64,000 nucleotides of DNA, taken from the NCBI GenBank assembly GCA_933228895.1, contig OW121846.1, positions 146,338,746 through 146,402,745 of the forward strand, in the 5' to 3' direction. Below are positions 2,404-63,525 of the stretch, in pieces. Made by a program: the position numbers and the translations under genes. The notes under the pieces were generated by a model. The model was not told the origin of the DNA, made no database searches, and saw nothing but the letters and a program-made list of their open reading frames with translations. This DNA comes from Platycnemis pennipes (taxonomy: Eukaryota > Arthropoda > Insecta > Odonata > Platycnemididae). How positions within the stretch are numbered: position 1 is the stretch's first letter; each line of letters begins with the position of its first letter.

Positions 2404-3891
2404 TTATCCAGTATTAAGTAAATTATATAAGTAAGATAGATCACACATGGTTCTTCTTTTTTGCAAAAATTGAAAATCAAACTTTACCAAATTTTCGTAG
2501 CTAACATAATTTTCATAATTCGGATAAACATTATATTGGGTATAGTATATATAGCGTAGAAACCTTTTTTGTACCCTCTCCAATATTTGAACATGTTTCT
2601 TACAGTGAGGATTCCACACTACAGAAGCATACTCCAATTTACATCTTACATATGAGTAATACAGCATTTTGAGAGATTTCTCAGACTCAAAGTACTTTTA
2701 CATTCGATTTACAAAACCCAATATCCTTTGAGCTGAGAGAGCTATCTCAAAGATATGTGGAGCAAAAGACATTGAAGAAGCAAATATAACCCCCAAGTCT
2801 CTTATTTTATGTAGGTACCTGCTTTAATGATAGACATTCTGTATTCATAATTGACATTAATCTTCTTCGTAGAGTATGTCAGTCGGTAACATTTCTCTAC
2901 ATTAAAATAAATTTTGTTTTCATAAGACCATTTAGTCAGATTGTCCAAATCTTGCAATTTTAGACAATCATCAACTCTACTCACTTTTTTGAAGACCTTA
3001 ATATCATCGGCAAACATTAAGCATTGAGAGTGTTGTAACGATAGGGGTAAATCATTCACAAAAATTAAGAATAAGAGGTCCTAAATTAGATCCTTGTGGA
3101 ACCCCTGACGTTACAGAATACTCATCAGATTTACATTTGTTATAGGTTACATATTGTTTTTGATCAGATAAGTATGACGATAGCCAATTTAACAAAGTAC
3201 CAGTTATACCAATGTAGTGGAGTTTCCTGACCAAAATACCATGATTAACAGTGTTAAATGCTTTCTTAAGATCAAGATAGATGACGTCAGTCTGGGCATG
3301 AATGTTCATATTATTCATAATATACTCAGTGAAAGCTACAAGTTGTACTTCTATATAACCTGAAACCATATTGTAATTCACTGATTTGGTTTTTCAATCG
3401 AAAGTGTATATGCTTATAGATAATGGACTCAAATATCTTTGAAAATACTGAGAGTATACTTACAGGTCGATAATTTTTCACCTTTTGTTTATTACCCTTC
3501 TTGAAAATTGGACATACCTTTGCTGTTTTCCATTTGGTAGGGAATACCCCACTTCGCAAAGAGAGATTAAATGCATGGCATTGCGCAGGGGCAATTAAGT
3601 TCGCACAACCCTTTACAATATACATTGGAATATATCAGGTCCCAGTGATTGTTTCATTTTAGTCACCTCAATAGTTTCGAGAAACTCATCTAGTGTAATC
3701 TTGTTTAGTGAACAGTTGATTGATGAATTATATTTTGATACATAAGTGTTTAGACTATTAAAATCTTCAGGGACATAAACAGAGACAAAATATTGTTTGA
3801 ATGCATTTAAAATGTCACATGGGTTATCAAATTTATGTCCATTATGTTCGATAATGTTCTTGGTATTGCTATTGGATCTTTGAATCTTCAC
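2404..3891 (-). pseudogene. LINE reverse transcriptase, multiply frameshifted
   Basis: Five minus-strand frames align in order with a LINE RT. These are an N-terminal part ending KQSLGPDIF (3891-3613), a fingers segment with VKNYRPVSILSVFSKIFE (3625-3326), and the first catalytic Asp in DLKKAFNTVNH with SGVPQGSNLGP (3381-3052). They are followed by the second catalytic pair in FADDIKVF (3059-2802) and the C-terminal thumb segment WNPHCKKHVQILERVQKR (2667-2404). The catalytic motifs survive but lie in at least three frames, so the gene cannot be translated through. The enzyme would copy the element RNA at the nicked target. Confidence 0.85.
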
Positions 3892-6514: not shown

Positions 6515-9090
6515 TTAACCTTCCGGCAGGCACGCTATTTTCCGTCACACGAGCGGGTGCATCGTGTGCGCTGTACATGACGACTTAAAGTTGTAAAAAA
6601 TACGGTATTTTGTTAAATAATAAATATGTTAATTCTTGAATATCAATATCATTTATTTATAAACAAATTCATGCACAATTTTATTACATTCGATTATGTT
6701 TTTTACCCATAGGACTGGCTAGCTTTCCGAAGAGTCGTGCTACTCGGTGTCCTCGTGGCACGGGAGGCAAGTTACGGTGGCTTGAGAGTGCTTTTTGCAA
6801 ATAAATCTGTTGCACCTGCCACATTTTAGCGTTGTTGTACTGTTAGCACACAGTTTACATCTACCCCGTTTCACACTGCTCAAGGTAACCCTTTCTTCTT
6901 CTTGCGGGTGGTAGCGCTTCAAATACGCGTATAAATCTGTCGGCAAAGTGAAGATGGTTGACCTGCTCACTAAATGTCCCCTCATAAGACCCATTGCTAA
7001 GTTCTTCAGAAATATTCTTCTCCGATATTGGTCTTTGTCACTGTGTTTACTGAAATACAGAATTTGACAGTTTATTCCTCCTATATTAAAAAAAAACCAA
7101 AAAATAATGCAAGGGGCCACCTTTTTGTTATTCGCGATACTGAATATGTGGCGCACATTTTATCAACCGTGTCCACTGCACCTTTGGTGATATTATAATC
7201 CAATATAATTTGTGGTTTGTTGGAAGTCTCATTGATGTCTGGAGAATCATGCATTGTGGACAGTAATATCACGGTTTTGTTTGCTCGTGGTACGAATGAC
7301 ACAAGCGTCGTGTTCGTGTGGAATCCAAACAAAGATGAATTGACCTTCCTAGCTTTATTTGGCAAAAATTCAAAAGGAATTTCACGTTTGTTTTTTCGAA
7401 TGGTGCCAATGAATGTTATTTTTTTAGACAGTAAATACTGAGTAAGTGCATAGTCAGTGTACCAATTATCTGTTGTTAGATTTCGGTTAGCATTTTGGAA
7501 TGGCTCGACGAGACGCTTGACTATGTCAGTTGGGGAATTGGATACTTTGTATTTGCCATCTGTTGCCCACAATAGACTTCTAAATTTCCAGTGTAAAAAG
7601 ATTTAGCGTCACAACAAGCAAATACTTTCAGTCCATATCTTGCAGGCTTACTTGAGATATACTGCACAAAACTACATCTACCTCTAAACGGGTGCAACAT
7701 CTCATCAGTCGCAATGTACTCACTCATTGTGTAATTTTTCACGCAATTCCCTACAAATCGATCTAAAATCGAATGAATAGCCGCAAGTTTATCAGTCTTT
7801 CTTCTATCTGCTCTGGTCGCAGAATCATCAAAACGGAGGCATCGTAGCAAAAACAAAAATCTCTTATAGCTCATGACTGCTCTAAGTGCCACAATACCAT
7901 CTGGATTCCATAACTCCAAGACGTTCGTATGATGACCATGTTTTATGCCAATCAGAAATAAAGCCCCAAACAAAGCAAGAATTTCTGTTTTTGAAGTAAT
8001 TCTAGCATCTCTCTCTCTAGAATAGGCCACATCAGCACATTTACGCTCTATAAAAGCATTTGTGTACCTCACAATTTCCTCAATCATGTCACCATCAATC
8101 ATTTTCTGAAATGCACTCACTTCATCGGTGATGTCTTTTGCAAAAGATTTCAGGCCTGACATAATTTTCACTATGTTTTTTTCCTTCATTTTTATCTTCG
8201 TTGTATATGGTGTTTTTTTTCCACTTGAACTTTTCATCCATACTGGAAACCACTACCTTAGATGTACCGGTTTTATCGCTTGCGTGTACGAGTCCGTCGT
8301 TGTGGCAACAAAATTTTCGCCCCTTTGCCAATGAAGAAATCCTCAACGATCGGAGCGGATGCAGCCTCAGGATCTTCACCTTCGGAAACCTCTTCTTCGG
8401 AATCGCTCTCCAAATCGTCCCGCTCAATTTCCTCTGCTTCACCTTCAGAGCCGTCATCGTCCATGGCATTTTCGTCCATTTCCCCTTCTTCGAAGTCCAG
8501 AAGTAACTTCGAATCGATCGTGCAACGGCTTCTGTATGGAGGATTATGCGAAAATTTTACGATTATAAAAAGCATGTATGCAGAATCATTTCATGTTTAT
8601 TATATTAGAAGTAAATTTTACCCGATTAATGAAATAAAAGTTAGCAAAATACACTTACCTGGATGGAATTTCCATTTCCAGCATAGACGTCAGCGTACAC
8701 GATGTCAAAGCCTCCCTACCAGCTTCCTTATTAGTTCTACTACCGAAAAATAAAAATAAATATCAAATGTTAGCATTATTTTAAGTAAAATATTAGTAAA
8801 ATTGATAAAAGTTGCAACAGGATGGAATGCGGGAAAAATATACTCGCAAACGTTGATTTCTTCTGCGTTCACCGCTCAGTGCACTTTGTGTGGTCTTCTC
8901 GACACGTTTCGTTCTCTGGTACACTAGAAACTGCTACTTAAAATAAAATGCCCACACACCATGAAGGGTAGTCATAAAATGAAGAAATAGCGTGGGGTCC
9001 CAGGTTGGTCCGCTAATGGTAAAAGGGTTTTCCCCACCAAAAACCGACTGCCGTGTACTCCGTACACGTAAGCGCCCGCCGGAAGGTTAA
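6515..9090 (-). mobile_element. piggyBac-family DNA transposon, nearly full length
   Basis: The element is bounded by TTAA at 6515-6518 and 9087-9090, the canonical piggyBac target. The 13-bp terminal inverted repeats are CCTTCCGGCaGGC and, on the other end, CCTTCCGGCgGGC (one mismatch). Between them lies a single minus-strand transposase gene with acidic N-terminus, DDD catalytic core and Cys-rich tail. Imperfect palindromes (tgtacnn...gtaca types) lie just inside both ends. Total 2576 bp including both TTAA sites, within the usual size for the family. Frameshifts in homopolymer runs break the gene, so it is a recently dead autonomous copy or carries sequencing indels. Confidence 0.95.
6740..8684 (-). 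pseudogene. piggyBac transposase, frameshifted, with probable 5' intron
   Basis: Cut-and-paste DDD transposase. On the minus strand the order is an acidic N-terminus (8575-8273, rich in DDD/EEE), then the core (8237-7521) with the first catalytic Asp in YIATDEMLHPFRG. The next frame (7572-7081) has the second Asp in LTTDNWYTD and the third in KGAVDTVDKMC. The last frame (7156-6740) ends in a Cys/His-rich tail (CKLCANS, LKCGRCNRFICKKH, CLPCH). All three Asp are intact. The start is best placed at 8684: exon 1 (8684-8659) encodes MLEMEIPS and ends at a gtaagt donor, and splicing to the acceptor at 8532-8533 (tccatacag) continues in frame as RSRCTIDSK. Frameshifts occur near 8270, in the T-run at about 8213-8222, near 7550 and near 7090-7105. 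Confidence 0.9.
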
Positions 9091-22364: not shown

Positions 22365-22643
22365 TTAAACATCGCAAGATTTGGAATTTACACAGGTTGA
22401 AATTTCTATTTCTTCGAGACCATCCAACTTGAGACCCTTGTTTTCAACGTGCAATATGTATGGTGTAAAGTCACTGCTATGTTTGTGTTGTAATAAATGA
22501 TTGGCGAATTGGGAAGTGTGTTTGTGGTTACGGAAGCAAGCTTTGTGTTCTTTTATCCTCGTGTCAAAGGTCCTCCCTGTCTGTCCAATGTATGATGCCC
22601 CGCAATCGTCACAGACGAGTTTATAAACTCTGCTCTCTTTCAA
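22365..22643 (-). pseudogene. GIY-YIG endonuclease domain, inverted copy
   Basis: The minus-strand frame KESRVYKLVCDDCGASYIGQ...RTFDTRIKEHKACFRN is virtually identical to the plus-strand copy at 23636-23920. The GIY-YIG nuclease core is visible in the VYKL and YIGQ strands and the catalytic Arg and His region FDTRIKEH. This copy has no RT attached. It arose as the inverted 5' segment of the Penelope-like element and is not an independent gene. Confidence 0.85.
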
Positions 22644-22740
22644 AATATCAAATTTAGCCTTTGTTGACCCCAGTATGTCTCTTAAGGTAATACTGTAGAA
22701 AGCGGCTCTGATTTCTTTTTTGGGGAAAAGCTTCTGGACC

Positions 22741-23438
22741 GCATGGTTTCCTTTGATGTGACCAACCTTTTTCCGAGCGTACCAAGATCCGAAGCTCTCA
22801 ACCTAGCGGAAATCACCCTCGCGAAAGCTAAGGCACCAGCACCTGTTATCAGTGAACCGTGTCACTTGTTAGAAACTTGTAAATCAGAGCAGCTTTTTAT
22901 TCAATGGCACATACTATCAGCAGACAGATGGCCTAGCCATGGGCTCACCTGTTTCCCTGCTTTTTGCAGACATCTACATGGACAACCTGGAAAACTTTTT
23001 TTCTCCAAGAGACACCCCCTCACAGAAAAGGTCCTTCATTGGTCGTGATACGTGGATGATGTGTTTTGTGTATGGACAGGGACAATGAGACAATTGGATA
23101 AGTTCATAACATTGTTAAATTCACAAGATAGTAATATAAAGTTCACGTGTGAAGTGGAAAAGGACGGAATGCTTAATTTCCTTGACTTATCGCTAAAAAT
23201 TGTAAATAACAAGTTTGATTTCTCCATATGTAGGAAACCATGCCACACTGACCATGTTATACATTCTCACTCAAATCACCACATAACACACAAACTAGCA
23301 GCCTTCCACTCCATGCTGTACAGACTATGCCACATTCCCATATCACACACAAATAAACATAGAGAACTCGCAACAATAAAACAGATTGCATTCAACAACG
23401 GTTATCCCACAAGGTTAATCGACACACACTACAGATGA
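22741..23438 (+). pseudogene. Penelope-like reverse transcriptase, interrupted
   Basis: Three RT motifs are readable in order on the plus strand. Motif A is VSFDVTNLFPSVPRSEAL (22743 on), with the first catalytic Asp. Motif B is TDGLAMGSPVS followed by ADIYMDN (about 22925-22985). Motif C is YVDDVFCVWTG (23048 on), with the catalytic Asp pair. Downstream, FTCEVEKDGMLNFLDLSL and the NGYP segment match the Penelope RT thumb region. A stop precedes YVDD and there are frame changes between motifs. The enzyme would reverse-transcribe element RNA at a nick made by the fused GIY-YIG domain. The finger region before motif A is replaced by the inverted segment. Confidence 0.88.
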
Positions 23439-23481
23439 AAACAAACACAATTGGCTGTTAGGTCCCTATACAACACACAGT

Positions 23482-24012
23482 GTGACAACGACATACAAAG
23501 GTGGAGACAGATACCATTCCTTGGCAAAATCCCTCCAAGTCCAGAAGCTTCTCCCCAAAAAAGAAATCAGAGCCGCTTTCTACAGTATTACCTTAAGAGA
23601 CATACTGGGGTCAACAAAGGCTAAATTTGATATTTTGAAAGAGAGCAGAGTTTATAAACTCGTCTGTGACGATTGCGGGGCCTCATACATTGGACAGACA
23701 GGGAGGACCTTTGACACGAGGATAAAAGAACACAAAGCTTGCTTCCGTAACCACAAACACACTTCCCAATTCACCAATCATTTATTACAACACAAACATA
23801 GCAGTGATTTTACACCATACATATTGCACGTTGAAAACAAGGGTCTCAAGTTGGATGGTCTCGAAGAAATAGAAATTTCAACCTGTGTAAATTCCAAATC
23901 TTGCGATGTTTTAAATGAATTATTATATCCATCCCGCTCCCCTCTTTTAAACCTCCCCTTCCCCCTGAGCTCCAACCGTTCCGCATCTGTCACTCCCCAG
24001 ACGAAACCCTAA
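23482..24012 (+). pseudogene. Penelope-like C-terminal GIY-YIG endonuclease domain
   Basis: The open frame of about 176 codons begins after RT sequence. It contains LQVQKLLPKKEIRAAFYS, then the zinc-knuckle-like LVCDDCGASYIGQTGRTF and the GIY-YIG active region FDTRIKEHKACFRN. A helix with LLQHKHSSDF follows, then EEIEISTCVNSKS and a Pro-rich tail. It is the nicking domain of the retroelement polyprotein. This stretch is open, but it is separated from the RT by a stop at about 23437, so it survives only as the tail of a broken polyprotein. Confidence 0.85.
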
Positions 24013-28093: not shown

Positions 28094-28099
28094 TTTATT
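28094..28099 (-). promoter_or_regulatory. Candidate poly(A) signal of the neuropeptide gene
   Basis: AATAAA on the minus strand, about 236 nt after the stop at 28335. It is the first canonical hexamer I saw downstream, so it is a plausible transcript end. Confidence 0.35.
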
Positions 28100-28334: not shown

Positions 28335-28782
28335 CTAATTTTTTAAGGGATCCCTCATTTGATCTGCCTTTCGGATTATCAGACCATACCCTCGTTTCCC
28401 CAGAAATTCAGAACCCAAATTCCTCTTCCCCAGGAATTCAGAGCCAAGGTATTTTTTTCTGAAGAGCATTGCAGTTTTTGGGTGCTTTCCTTGCTCTGGA
28501 TCCTTAAGTGCGGACCACTCCACAATCCCATTCTCGCTTTGTTGAGTCACCACATGAAAGACGTCCATCAGGAGATCACCTGCATCCTTAATGCTCTTCC
28601 CTTCGGACTCTAAAAATAAATTGAGAGACCCTTCACATGCCATCCTCTGAGGTTCTATGCAATCATGAATTCCAAATATTTCAATGCTCACCAAGCATTT
28701 TGATGTGGATTCTGGTGTCCTGTGGAGCCGCAGTCACATGCATTGAAAACACTGACAGAGCCAAGAAAGTGAAGGCTATCAT
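28335..28782 (-). CDS. EFLa: EFLamide (TRH-type) neuropeptide precursor
   Basis: A secreted prepropeptide of 121 residues in two coding exons. Exon 28782-28692 encodes the signal peptide MIAFTFLALSVFSMHVTA, with probable cleavage before APQDT. A donor G|gtgagc and an acceptor atttatttttag bound an 82-nt intron (28691-28610). Exon 28609-28335 continues in frame from ESEGKSIKDAG. Residues 81-103 read RKK-YLGSEFLG-KR-NLGSEFLG-KR: two copies of an amidation-ready peptide (C-terminal Gly before KR), giving YLGSEFLamide and NLGSEFLamide. A tail GYGLIIRKADQMRDPLKN ends at a stop. GSEFLamide peptides are the arthropod EFLamide family, orthologous to TRH. A strong acceptor (cttctcttttcag, 28805-28792) ten bases before the ATG indicates an upstream untranslated exon. 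Read from the TTG at 28694 the frame stays open through the intron, which hides the true start. Confidence 0.85.
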
Positions 28783-29750
28783 TTTAGTATCCTGAAAAGA
28801 GAAGAATTCATATTGGAGATTATCAGGGACATGTCATGAAGACTTCTCAAATACATATTTCATTGCTGTTGAAGTATTTGAAAACACATTGGTATCATCG
28901 CATGAGTATCAAAAAGAAATCAGTTCAATGATTATTTGTCCTGACATTAATTTTTTTGCACACAAATTAGCATTCAGCATTTAGGAACTCTTTCTACTGC
29001 TGCCTCTCAGAAGAACAGTACTGACTTTCTAAACCTCTGCCTTTTGGATCTTTCCCCCTTCGAATGGGGTTGACTGGTCTGGTGAGGACGAGCGCCCACT
29101 CTACTCTCATAATCTGTCATTATATTTTTAGAAATATGTTATGCCTATGAAATGTTCTATTCTCTGCATTAACAAATAAGGTGGAGAAGAGAAATCATTT
29201 TGATTAAGCCTAATGAAAGCAGATCTGTAGCACTGGGCTGAAGCAAGTGAAAAGAAGATCCTAGACAAAAGCACAAATTTCTACCAAATAATGTTTGGTC
29301 ATTGTTTCATTATCTTATGACATAATTAGGTAATTATTGTAAATCATGTTTTTCATCAGTTTACTAAAATGAAAAACAAATAATTATGTAGAAAGAAAAG
29401 TTTCTGTTTCTTCAGATTAGAATGGAATTTAAGTTAACCTAAACCTAAATGTTGTGCAAAATATTTTGTAATCCCAGTAACTAGCTTGACATGTTTCACT
29501 TACAGAGGGGAGAATTCCATTTCTTATGTATACATTTGCACTTTGCTAGTAGATCAACATAATTTTCAATTGGACACTATTTTTTTATAAAAGTAATGAA
29601 TTATCTACCAATTAAGCTGAATCTATCCGTGTGACCCAAGAAGCAAAATATACCCATTTTGAGCTTGGTGATCTCAAGATTACATTTGTTTGATTTAAAT
29701 GAACAAGGATGGAAAGAGTAGCATTTCAAGGCATCAACAATACACAATGC
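28783..29750. other. Probable 5' intron / flank of the neuropeptide gene
   Basis: The minus-strand acceptor at 28793-28792 implies that a 5' untranslated exon lies at higher coordinates. I could not identify that exon or a promoter by eye. No transposon or reading frame was recognised. Confidence 0.4.
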
Positions 29751-33837: not shown

Positions 33838-35855
33838 TAAGTAATGTAATAATGTTTTTGGGCACGAAAAACATGATGGAAGAACTTTGGAGTTCGAAAA
33901 TTGCATCCGTGACCCCTGGAAGGGCACAGTCAAGGTCACAGGGGATACGAAAAGTGAATCACCATCACAAACCTGTCGAATCATAGGTTTAAAAATGTGC
34001 TCAGGTGGATGGTAAGGTCTTCAGATCCCTCTTGTCATCCCTTGACCTTCAAGGGTTACTCAGGGGTCAAAGGTCACACGGGTGATAAAAAGTGAACTGG
34101 GTCCACAACAATGTCGAATCATATGTGTCAAGAGTGCCCATTACGATGGAAAGGTCATCAAATGCCTCTTGTCATCCCTTGACCTTCAAGGGTTACTCAG
34201 GGTCAAAGGTCATAGGGGTGACAAAAAGTGAATCGAGGTTATAAATGTATCGAATCATAGGTTTCAAAGAGTGCTCAATACGATGGTGAAGTCCCTCCAG
34301 GAATATCTGGCCTTGACCGGTTGGGCAGGGGCCAAAGCAGGTGTAGCCTAGGAAATCAGGGCAACAGACACGTCTAATTGTAGCTTCGAAAGGGTGAAGA
34401 ATTAGATGAAGTTTCTTGTTCCTGTTTGTCGTCTTCTGAATTCAAAGGGCTACACTGATATCAATGGTCACAGATGTTCGAAATGGCAAGACAGGGACAT
34501 AAACATGATGAAATTGAGATTTTTTTAGGCTGCCAAAGTCAATGGTAAGGTACTCAGATCCCACCTGTCATCTCTTGAACTCTTGGGGTCATATGGTAGT
34601 CGTTGATTTCTAGTTTACAAATGAATGAAAAAATTCAATTGCAGTTTCAAGTTAATTCCTTTTATTCAATGATAAATACTTTATCATATTTTTATTCAAA
34701 AATTATTTTAAATATCCCAAATTTACACAATATCAAAATTTAAAATGAAAATTTCGAAGCAGTATGAAAAATCAAATTTTATTCATTCTACGTGCCCTCC
34801 ATTCCGAGCCAGGCTTAATTGAAATCGCCCGATAAAAGCGTGTGTGAATGTGTCTTCCAGCATATTTGGGGATGTGAACTCTGCACACGTTGTAATTACT
34901 TTCTTCACTTCTTAGATGGACGGAAATGTTTTCTTGGCTACACCTGGTGAACTTTGGCCCTTGCCCAACCGTCAGAGAAAATAAAAAGGCCAGAGAATTC
35001 CTGGAGGGACTTAATCATCATATTGGGCACTCTTTGAAATCCTTGATTCGATACATTTGTAGCCTCGATTCGCTTTTTTTCACCCGTGTGACCTTTGACC
35101 CCTGAGTAACCCTTGAAGGTCAAGGGATGACAAGAGGGATCTGAAGACCTTACCATCAACCTTGGCACATTTTTAAACCTATGATTCGATACATTTGTAG
35201 CCTCATTTAATCTCTTGTCACCCTTTGACCCCTGAGTAACCCTTGAAGGTCAAGGGATGACAAGAGGGATCTGAAGACCTTACCATCAACCTTGGCACAT
35301 TTTTAAACCTATGATTCGATACATTTGTAGCCTCATTTAATCTCTTGTCACCCTTTGACCCCTGAGTAACCCTTGAAGGTCAAGGGATGACAAGAGGGAT
35401 CTGAAGACCTTACCATCAACCTTGGCACATTTTTAAACCTATGATTCGATACATTTGTAGCCTCATTTAATCTCTTGTCACCCTTTGACCCCTGAGTAAC
35501 CCTTGAAGGTCAAGGGATGACAAGAGGGATCTGAAGACCTTACCATCAACCTTGGCACATTTTTAAACCTATGATTCGATACATTTGTAGCCTCATTTAA
35601 TCTCTTGTCACCCTTTGACCCCTGAGTAACCCTTGAAGGTCAAGGGATGACAAGAGGGATCTGAAGATCTTACCATCAACCTTGGTACATTTTTCAACCT
35701 ATGATTCGACAGGTTTGTAACGGTGATTCACTTTTTGTAACCCCTGTGACCTTGACTGTGCCCTTCCAGGAGTCACGGATGAAATTTTCAAACTCCAAAG
35801 TTCTTCCATTTGTTTTTCAAGACCAAAAACATAATAGTTGTAAGTTTCGCTAAGT
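33838..35855. mobile_element. Foldback-like element: long inverted arms with iterated units
   Basis: The left arm (about 33838-34345) is the inverse of the right arm (about 34925-35855). Outer ends share aacatgatggaagaactttgg with the inverted right end. Inner ends share gtccctccaggaat and ggttgggca.gggccaaag. Both arms carry units containing tcatcccttgaccttcaagg: about three in the left arm, six in the right. The central loop (34346-34924) has no recognised gene. Long inverted repeats with internal tandem units are the hallmark of foldback (FB/Galileo-type) transposons. The superfamily is inferred from architecture only. Confidence 0.75.
35031..35800. repeat. 130-bp tandem repeat array inside the right foldback arm
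   Basis: The anchor cttggcacat recurs at 35161, 35291, 35421 and 35551, and as cttggtacat at 35681, an exact 130-bp period. The units from 35161 to 35680 are identical by eye except for one base near the end of the last. Flanking units (35031-35160 and 35681-35800) are diverged. Identity of the inner units points to recent amplification or gene conversion. Confidence 0.92.
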
Positions 35856-43436: not shown

Positions 43437-43507
43437 GCCTTGGTAGCGCAACTGGTAGAGCAACTGGCCGGAATTCAGGGGGTCCGGGTTCGAGTCCCGG
43501 TCAAGGC
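43437..43507 (+). repeat. tRNA-like unit (tRNA pseudogene or SINE head) with Pol III terminator
   Basis: The 71-nt segment folds as a cloverleaf. The acceptor stem is GCCTTGG/TCAAGGC with one wobble, and the T arm CCGGG-TTCGAGT-CCCGG is perfect. The D stem has one mismatch, and the anticodon stem is weak with C instead of T at position 33 (anticodon position GGA). The A box tagcgcaactgg and B box ggttcgagtcc are present. A run of seven T at 43514-43520 would stop Pol III. The weak anticodon arm favours a tRNA-derived repeat over a functional tRNA. Confidence 0.5.
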
Positions 43508-44160
43508 GAATGATTTTTTTCTCTGTGGAATATCTTGCATTCGTGCATCTCAGTGGGTAACTCCGTTAAAGTTTTCGCGGCTAGCTCGCGTGCTTTGAAT
43601 TTGTTAAAAGAATGTGACCTAACTTGCCGAGAAGAGGCGGGCGCCCGTCGTCGGCTGGGCGGTCACCCGCCTCCATCCATGGACGGGCAACGAGTATAAA
43701 GCCAAAAGTGCTCGAGTTCTATAAATATTTTCACACAAAGGGTAAAAAAAAGGATTAAAATTACATAAACACAAAAATATAATGAAGTATTCTTTTTCAA
43801 GCAGTATGTCTCTGAAAACGATTATTGATTATCTTATCTTACCATTGAGCAAAGTAAGTGGTAAATTAAGAACCGGAACCGAGAACCGAAGTTAAGAACC
43901 GAACCGGAACCGAAAAAAAGTGGAACCGACCCATCCCTAGTTTTTTCGATAGTTGTTCTCGCGTTCTATTACAGATTTTTCAGCTTCATGAATAATTTCC
44001 AGTTTTATGTGCTAAATCATATTATTTTATCGCGTATTGGATATTCTCCTCCAAATCCAGATTTTATCAATAATGTCCAGCTCTTATTCCATGAGGCACG
44101 GTTTACGTACTACCATACACCTAATCATACCATTCTACAAACTATAACCCATACGAAAAG

Positions 44161-63065: not shown

Positions 63066-63525
63066 CGCATATTACACGCTCAGAGGCTTGGTGTGGGAGA
63101 AGCAATGTTCGTATGAGTTCAAAGCATTGCAATATCCCTCATGCATATGACACGCTCAGAGGCTTGGTGTGGGAGAAGCAATGTTCGTATGAGTTCAAAG
63201 CATTGCAATATCCCTCATGCATATGACACGTTCAGAGGCTTGGTGTGGGAGAAGCAATGTTCGTATGAGTTCAAAGCATTGCAATATCCCTCATGCATAT
63301 GACACGTTCAGAGGCTTGGTGTTGGAGAAGCAATGTTCGTATGAGTTCAAAGCATTGCAATATCCCTCATGCATATGACACGTTCAGAGGCTTGGTGTTG
63401 GAGAAGCAATGTTCGTATGAGTTCAAAGCATTGCAATATCCCTCATGCATATGACACGTTCAGAGGCTTGGTGTTGGAGAAGCAATGTTCGTATGAGTTC
63501 AAAGCATTGCAATATCCCTCATGCT
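63066..63525. repeat. Tandem array, six 76-bp units
   Basis: The unit runs from catatgacacg through cagaggcttggtg and gaagcaatgttcgtatgag to gcaatatccctcatg. It recurs at exactly 76-bp steps (63142, 63218, 63294, 63370, 63446). The first unit is slightly diverged (catattacacg). Units 1-3 have gtgtggg, units 4-6 gtgttgg. Units 1-2 have gctcag, later ones gttcag. This ordering shows stepwise growth. Long open frames here are repeat artefacts. Confidence 0.95.

Follow-up and report, generated by a model that had tools for sequence, protein, structure and literature searches.

To judge from its sequence, the feature on the minus strand of the window (the whole 64,000-nucleotide stretch of Platycnemis pennipes DNA analysed here) is almost certainly a damselfly EFLamide (GSEFLamide, TRH-type) neuropeptide precursor gene, accompanied in the same genome by its likely receptor gene. 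It reads as two coding exons that together specify a 121-aa preprohormone, and looks like a new odonate representative of a peptide family that is already known but has proved elusive in insects. The assignment made in the initial annotation, namely a GSEFLamide-type gene of the TRH family, is supported by a relative in Ischnura elegans, by the non-repeat character of the sequence, and by the TRH-type receptor in the same genome.

Coding exon 1 (28692..28782, minus strand, 91 nt) opens with the ATG at 28782 and comprises a signal-like peptide, the start of a spacer, and the first base of the codon that the intron interrupts; that is, it encodes MIAFTFLALSVFSMHVTAAPQDTRIHIKML plus one base. The intron (28610..28691, minus strand, 82 nt) is of the GT-AG type, with the donor GTGAGC running from 28691 and the 3′ end reading ATTTATTTTTAG. 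Coding exon 2 (28335..28609, minus strand) then supplies the spacer, RKK, YLGSEFLG-KR, NLGSEFLG-KR, a C-terminal tail, and the stop. The codon interrupted by the intron is G|AG, so that by the usual convention the intron follows the first codon base. Its length is not a multiple of three and the exon 1 frame runs into stops within it; thus, splicing is required to connect both parts. The signal-peptide exon, the gtgagc donor, the acceptor 82 nt further on, the frame-preserving join, and the dibasic sites named in the initial annotation are all present, on the minus strand. A naive 119-aa ORF over exon 2 begins at TTG 28694, and because this start is out of frame an ORF caller misses the signal peptide, as had been anticipated; the TTG itself, however, had been placed inside the intron and in fact consists of the three bases with which exon 1 ends. 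Upstream of the start, a pyrimidine-rich CAG directly precedes GATACTAAA-ATG (TTCTTCTCTTTTCAG|GATACTAAA-ATG, with the AG at 28792..28793 on the minus strand), which by sequence reading may be the acceptor of a non-coding exon further upstream. The first AATAAA downstream of the stop lies 235 nt away (28094..28099, minus strand) and is, as a motif, a candidate poly(A) signal.

The N terminus of the spliced protein shows a Kyte-Doolittle 11-residue peak of 2.44 at residues 2–12, compared with a best value of 1.30 beyond residue 20, and the I. elegans relative peaks likewise at residues 2–12. Hydropathy and inspection by eye point to a likely signal peptide of approximately 18 residues, with cleavage after VTA. 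Members of the family are characterised by such an N-terminal signal peptide, for which the damselfly protein qualifies by hydropathy and similarly in Ischnura, and by at least one peptide ending in (GS)EFL, followed by glycine and a dibasic site, of which two units occur here. The C-terminal part of the 121-residue protein reads RKK-YLGSEFLG-KR-NLGSEFLG-KR-GYGLIIRKADQMRDPLKN. A degenerate 23-mer DNA pattern for the GSEFLGKR unit, with some other residues allowed at S, L, and R, locates the core of YLGSEFLG-KR at 28423..28445 and that of NLGSEFLG-KR at 28393..28415, both on the minus strand. The two amidation-ready peptides that had been described behind a signal peptide can thus both be read in the spliced frame, with YLGSEFL-amide and NLGSEFL-amide as the predicted 7-mers.

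Among around 5.8 billion proteins, the spliced protein obtains one match at E values up to 1. This is LOC124171055 of I. elegans (P0001), an ‘uncharacterized protein’ that matches with an E value of 3.8e-29 and 59% identity (BLASTP) over 100% of the query (64% in alignment). The two proteins share the signal-like N terminus, the junction residues, and the RKK-YLGSEFLG-KR-NLGSEFLG-KR block, with both peptides identical; the Ischnura protein, known here from the protein alone, differs in its shorter spacer and its tail. Across the splice junction of the 82-nt intron it reads IKML|E, without intron-derived residues. Since this evidence is protein and not gene DNA, an intron at the corresponding place in the Ischnura gene is suggested rather than seen. 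Identity between the two is 11/18 in the signal, 9/13 at residues 19–31, 16/42 in the spacer (8 of the 42 stand opposite gaps), 29/30 in the peptide block (residues 74–103), and 7/18 in the tail, an unevenness that is the pattern expected of a neuropeptide precursor. Residues 19–31 (28728–28692 plus 28609–28608; xPxDTxIxIKMLE) are thus better kept than the spacer behind them, and might be processed into a second product or act in sorting. The initial annotation held that automated annotation could miss the gene: in its favour, the Ischnura entry is named only ‘uncharacterized’; against it, NCBI does contain that protein, and its residues at the junction match. No precursor from Hetaerina americana is found among the matches to the spliced protein (E up to 1), although a receptor from this species (P0044) is in the database, which is a hint—and no proof—that annotation misses the gene there.

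Insect species with EFLamide are described, in the excerpted text of PMC6585902, as also carrying an ortholog of the TRH-type receptor, and the ligand-bearing damselfly does so too: the genome search for such a receptor, put forward in the initial annotation as a check, is positive, with six exons on contig C2. The human TRH receptor yields 66 matches in the genome, three of which lie on the minus strand of C2, in order, at 46%–54% identity. The lowest E-value row of this search belongs to another GPCR locus (C44:104744793, E 6.8e-25, 31% over 261 residues), and identities of 41%–49% occur in certain short matches outside C2; the C2 gene is distinguished from other GPCR loci by identity, exon order, and a reverse test against PDB sequences. 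In the reverse test, a 201-aa join of exons A, B, and C scores 177.6 bits with the TRH receptor, a clear margin over the 87.9 bits of neurotensin receptor 1, the second-best kind (best 60 of 792 matches). Three of the C2 exons show AG and GT ends by eye, and the two junctions read in this way join in frame.

With the H. americana receptor P0044 as the query, three C2 exons take ranks 1–3, and two further exons are found: the N-terminal exon (142150554–142150796, rank 5 of 51) and the TM5 exon (142065373–142065720), both on the minus strand. A TM7 exon with AINPILYN lies approximately 3 kb beyond the three first-found exons, also on the minus strand. All six exons run in order on this strand from 142,150,796 to approximately 141,916,330, spanning approximately 234 kb. 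The C2 receptor and that of H. americana are identical at 146/147 residues over TM1–TM4, with matches of 66% in the N-terminal exon and 85% in the TM5 exon. A 289-aa query of four exons, which leaves out the TM5 and N-terminal ones, gives 737 matches at E up to 1e-10; in the best 120 of these, arthropod TRH receptors stand at the top, and the rows that name a function name a TRH receptor or TRH-like protein, with the one exception of a pyrokinin-1 receptor and with some rows unnamed or ‘hypothetical’. The Locusta migratoria TRH receptor (P0019) shares 103/167 residues, the last 20 columns of which cross an exon join and have little meaning, in addition to 65/105; the damselfly gene, by comparison, is one of six exons over its long span, with a ligand pairing proposed here from the sequences. 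On these comparisons, the C2 gene is likely to encode a TRH-type receptor, a rhodopsin-class GPCR.

Beyond the Odonata, sequence relatives of the precursor are few. A two-sequence profile (the window precursor plus that of Ischnura) finds four proteins at E up to 10, including Ischnura itself. P0002 (E 1.7e-6) contains MGSEFLGKR three times and LGSEFLGKR once, and P0003 (E 5.5e-3) is a shorter protein that is almost identical to the final part of P0002. The match to P0004, a protein of the mite Oppiella nova, is weak (E 0.036); this protein carries two copies of GSEFLGKR and one of GSEFLGRR. Pfam assigns no family to either the window precursor or the Ischnura protein, and neither the spliced-protein matches (E up to 1) nor the profile matches (E up to 10) include a precursor labelled as coming from a locust or phasmid. 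Partial texts of earlier work provide counterparts of the peptides. GSEFLamide is described as the family signature in the shrimp Lysmata vittata and in crustaceans (PMC7212414), and the lobster Homarus americanus has AMGSEFLamide and AVGSEFLamide as predicted peptides (PMC4696782). These crustacean precursors share the G-S-E-F-L-amide core with the damselfly and, in Lysmata, a signal peptide; the Lysmata transcript, however, is incomplete at 210 aa and holds eleven predicted peptides, five with GSEFLamide (for example, IGSEFLamide and AMGSEFLamide), whereas the damselfly precursor has two copies, both LGSEFL. In mantises, the ortholog is predicted as SLGSELLamide, a 7-mer of equal layout to the damselfly peptides (PMC11874938, in part). 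The ELLamide of mantises and the German cockroach differs in having L for F, and, in contrast to the whole coding sequence here, only the last coding exon is described there; this exon opens with the remaining two bases of an interrupted codon, as does damselfly exon 2 (G|AG). The same source calls its site phase 2, whereas the damselfly intron follows the first codon base, and the sites are compared by description only.

Repeat origin is one alternative that has to be weighed: under this explanation, the SEFL units would be part of a transposon or dispersed repeat, with signal peptide and splice sites arising by accident. Transposable-element remains do exist in the window, where Pfam searches on ten frames give two transposase matches (7081–8252) and one to a reverse transcriptase (3052–3393). 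Nevertheless, 601 bp of the gene DNA match one place in the genome of 1,793,331,434 bases (1.79 Gb; the search skips very common words), the precursor protein finds one locus (two exon rows), and a full-length damselfly relative exists. The EFLamide gene is single copy by both protein and DNA searches, and the possibility raised in the initial annotation, that the SEFL repeats belong to an unrelated repeat family, is thereby removed; we regard a repeat origin as extremely unlikely. The 23-mer pattern finds its two matches in the window against 0.00 expected, and none of 100 dinucleotide shuffles reaches two. Genome-wide, it occurs at seven places, two of which are the EFLamide gene, compared with two matches for a backwards control; of the other five, four read GKS (one as GSEFLGKS) and one reads GREFFGKR. 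A second EFLamide gene at any of these five was considered and rejected, as they have no second unit and their frames contain stops over the 300 nt preceding each match and the 240 nt that begin with it.

Convergence deserves slightly more weight, though it too seems very improbable: a secreted protein of another family would have come by EFLG-KR repeats independently and would be no EFLamide ortholog. Outside the motif region there is indeed little similarity to the non-odonate GSEFLGKR proteins, with few columns common to P0002–P0004 and the damselfly proteins, and orthology hence cannot be shown by alignment alone. What argues against convergence is that GSEFLamide is a described crustacean family signature (PMC7212414 and PMC4696782, both in part), that SLGSELLamide is the peptide predicted for the ortholog in the mantis (PMC11874938, in part), and that a matching TRH-type receptor is present in the same genome. 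It is hardly credible that the locus is instead an EFLamide precursor gene decaying into a pseudogene: the frame, the GT-AG sites, and the dibasic and amidation sites are intact, the peptide block is far better kept relative to Ischnura than the spacer, and the receptor exons over TM1–TM4 differ from those of H. americana at only 1/147 residues.

Frame, splice sites, signal-like N terminus, cleavage and amidation sites, full-length relative, single copy, and receptor gene are established by sequence, and from these the transcription, processing, amidation, and receptor binding of an EFLamide system can be inferred. The spliced mRNA would be translated into the 121-aa preprohormone, from which signal peptidase would take off approximately 18 residues. 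Prohormone convertase would then cleave at RKK and at both KR sites, and carboxypeptidase would trim the basic residues. Amidation of the exposed glycines is predicted to yield YLGSEFLamide and NLGSEFLamide, both of which would be expected to signal via the TRH-type GPCR on contig C2. In the locust, EFLamide is associated with central complex circuits (PMC7584566) and with a single bilateral neuron for which a role in spatial orientation has been proposed (PMC11874938), each according to partial text. By analogy with the locust described in these two sources, damselfly EFLamide may be a modulator released by brain interneurons.

Other elements of the window were recorded alongside the gene. 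The transposase at 7081–8252 (Pfam DDE_Tnp_1_7, presumably of the piggyBac type) lies on the minus strand and is split over two overlapping frames, and is thus probably a broken copy. Two stretches, at 22365–22802 (minus strand) and 23419–24012 (plus strand), are near-copies of a single protein segment that face in opposite directions, the former with a GIY-YIG match slightly under the Pfam cut-off (20.3 versus 22.6 bits); we take this layout to recall Penelope-like retroelements. The only Rfam match in the window is a tRNA (43437–43508, plus strand, 46.7 bits, above the gathering score), either a gene or a repeat derived from a tRNA. Tandem arrays comprise a 130-nt unit at 35092–35709 (4.8 copies, 99% matches), a more diverged 137-nt unit at 33976–34286 (2.3 copies, 80%) that shares sequence with the 130-nt array in opposite orientation, and a 76-nt unit at 63067–63524 (6 copies, 99% matches).

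Previous accounts of EFLamide in insects, as far as the partial texts extend, are fragmentary: EFLamide was not found in a survey of the cockroach Rhyparobia (PMC12604039), is an unconfirmed fragment in a cricket survey (PMC9960350), and is represented by the last exon only in mantises and the German cockroach (PMC11874938). For the combination of Odonata, neuropeptide, and EFLamide, the one paper with all three among those listed, PMC7198766, has both rare terms in its reference list only. No odonate EFLamide was found in the open-access literature searched, among the matches listed and as far as their partial texts go, the primary locust and phasmid papers lying outside that scope. That literature likewise yielded no mention of LGSEFLamide, of LOC124171055, or of EFLamide together with dragonfly.

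Odonata are an early-branching group of winged insects. A complete, single-copy odonate precursor together with its receptor adds a deep insect branch to the family, as well as a two-peptide and gene-structure template. It appears probable that Odonata keep a complete TRH-type pair, that LGSEFL-amide lies near the form present in ancestral winged insects, the source of the ELLamide of mantises and cockroaches, and that the two-exon structure can serve as a template. If this is true, the full two-exon coding structure would provide a guide for finding the missing first exons of other insects. The pairing of ligand and receptor becomes directly testable in damselflies, aerial predators that rely strongly on vision. 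This way of life gives the question added interest, as spatial orientation is the function suggested for the EFLamide neuron of the locust (PMC11874938, in part).
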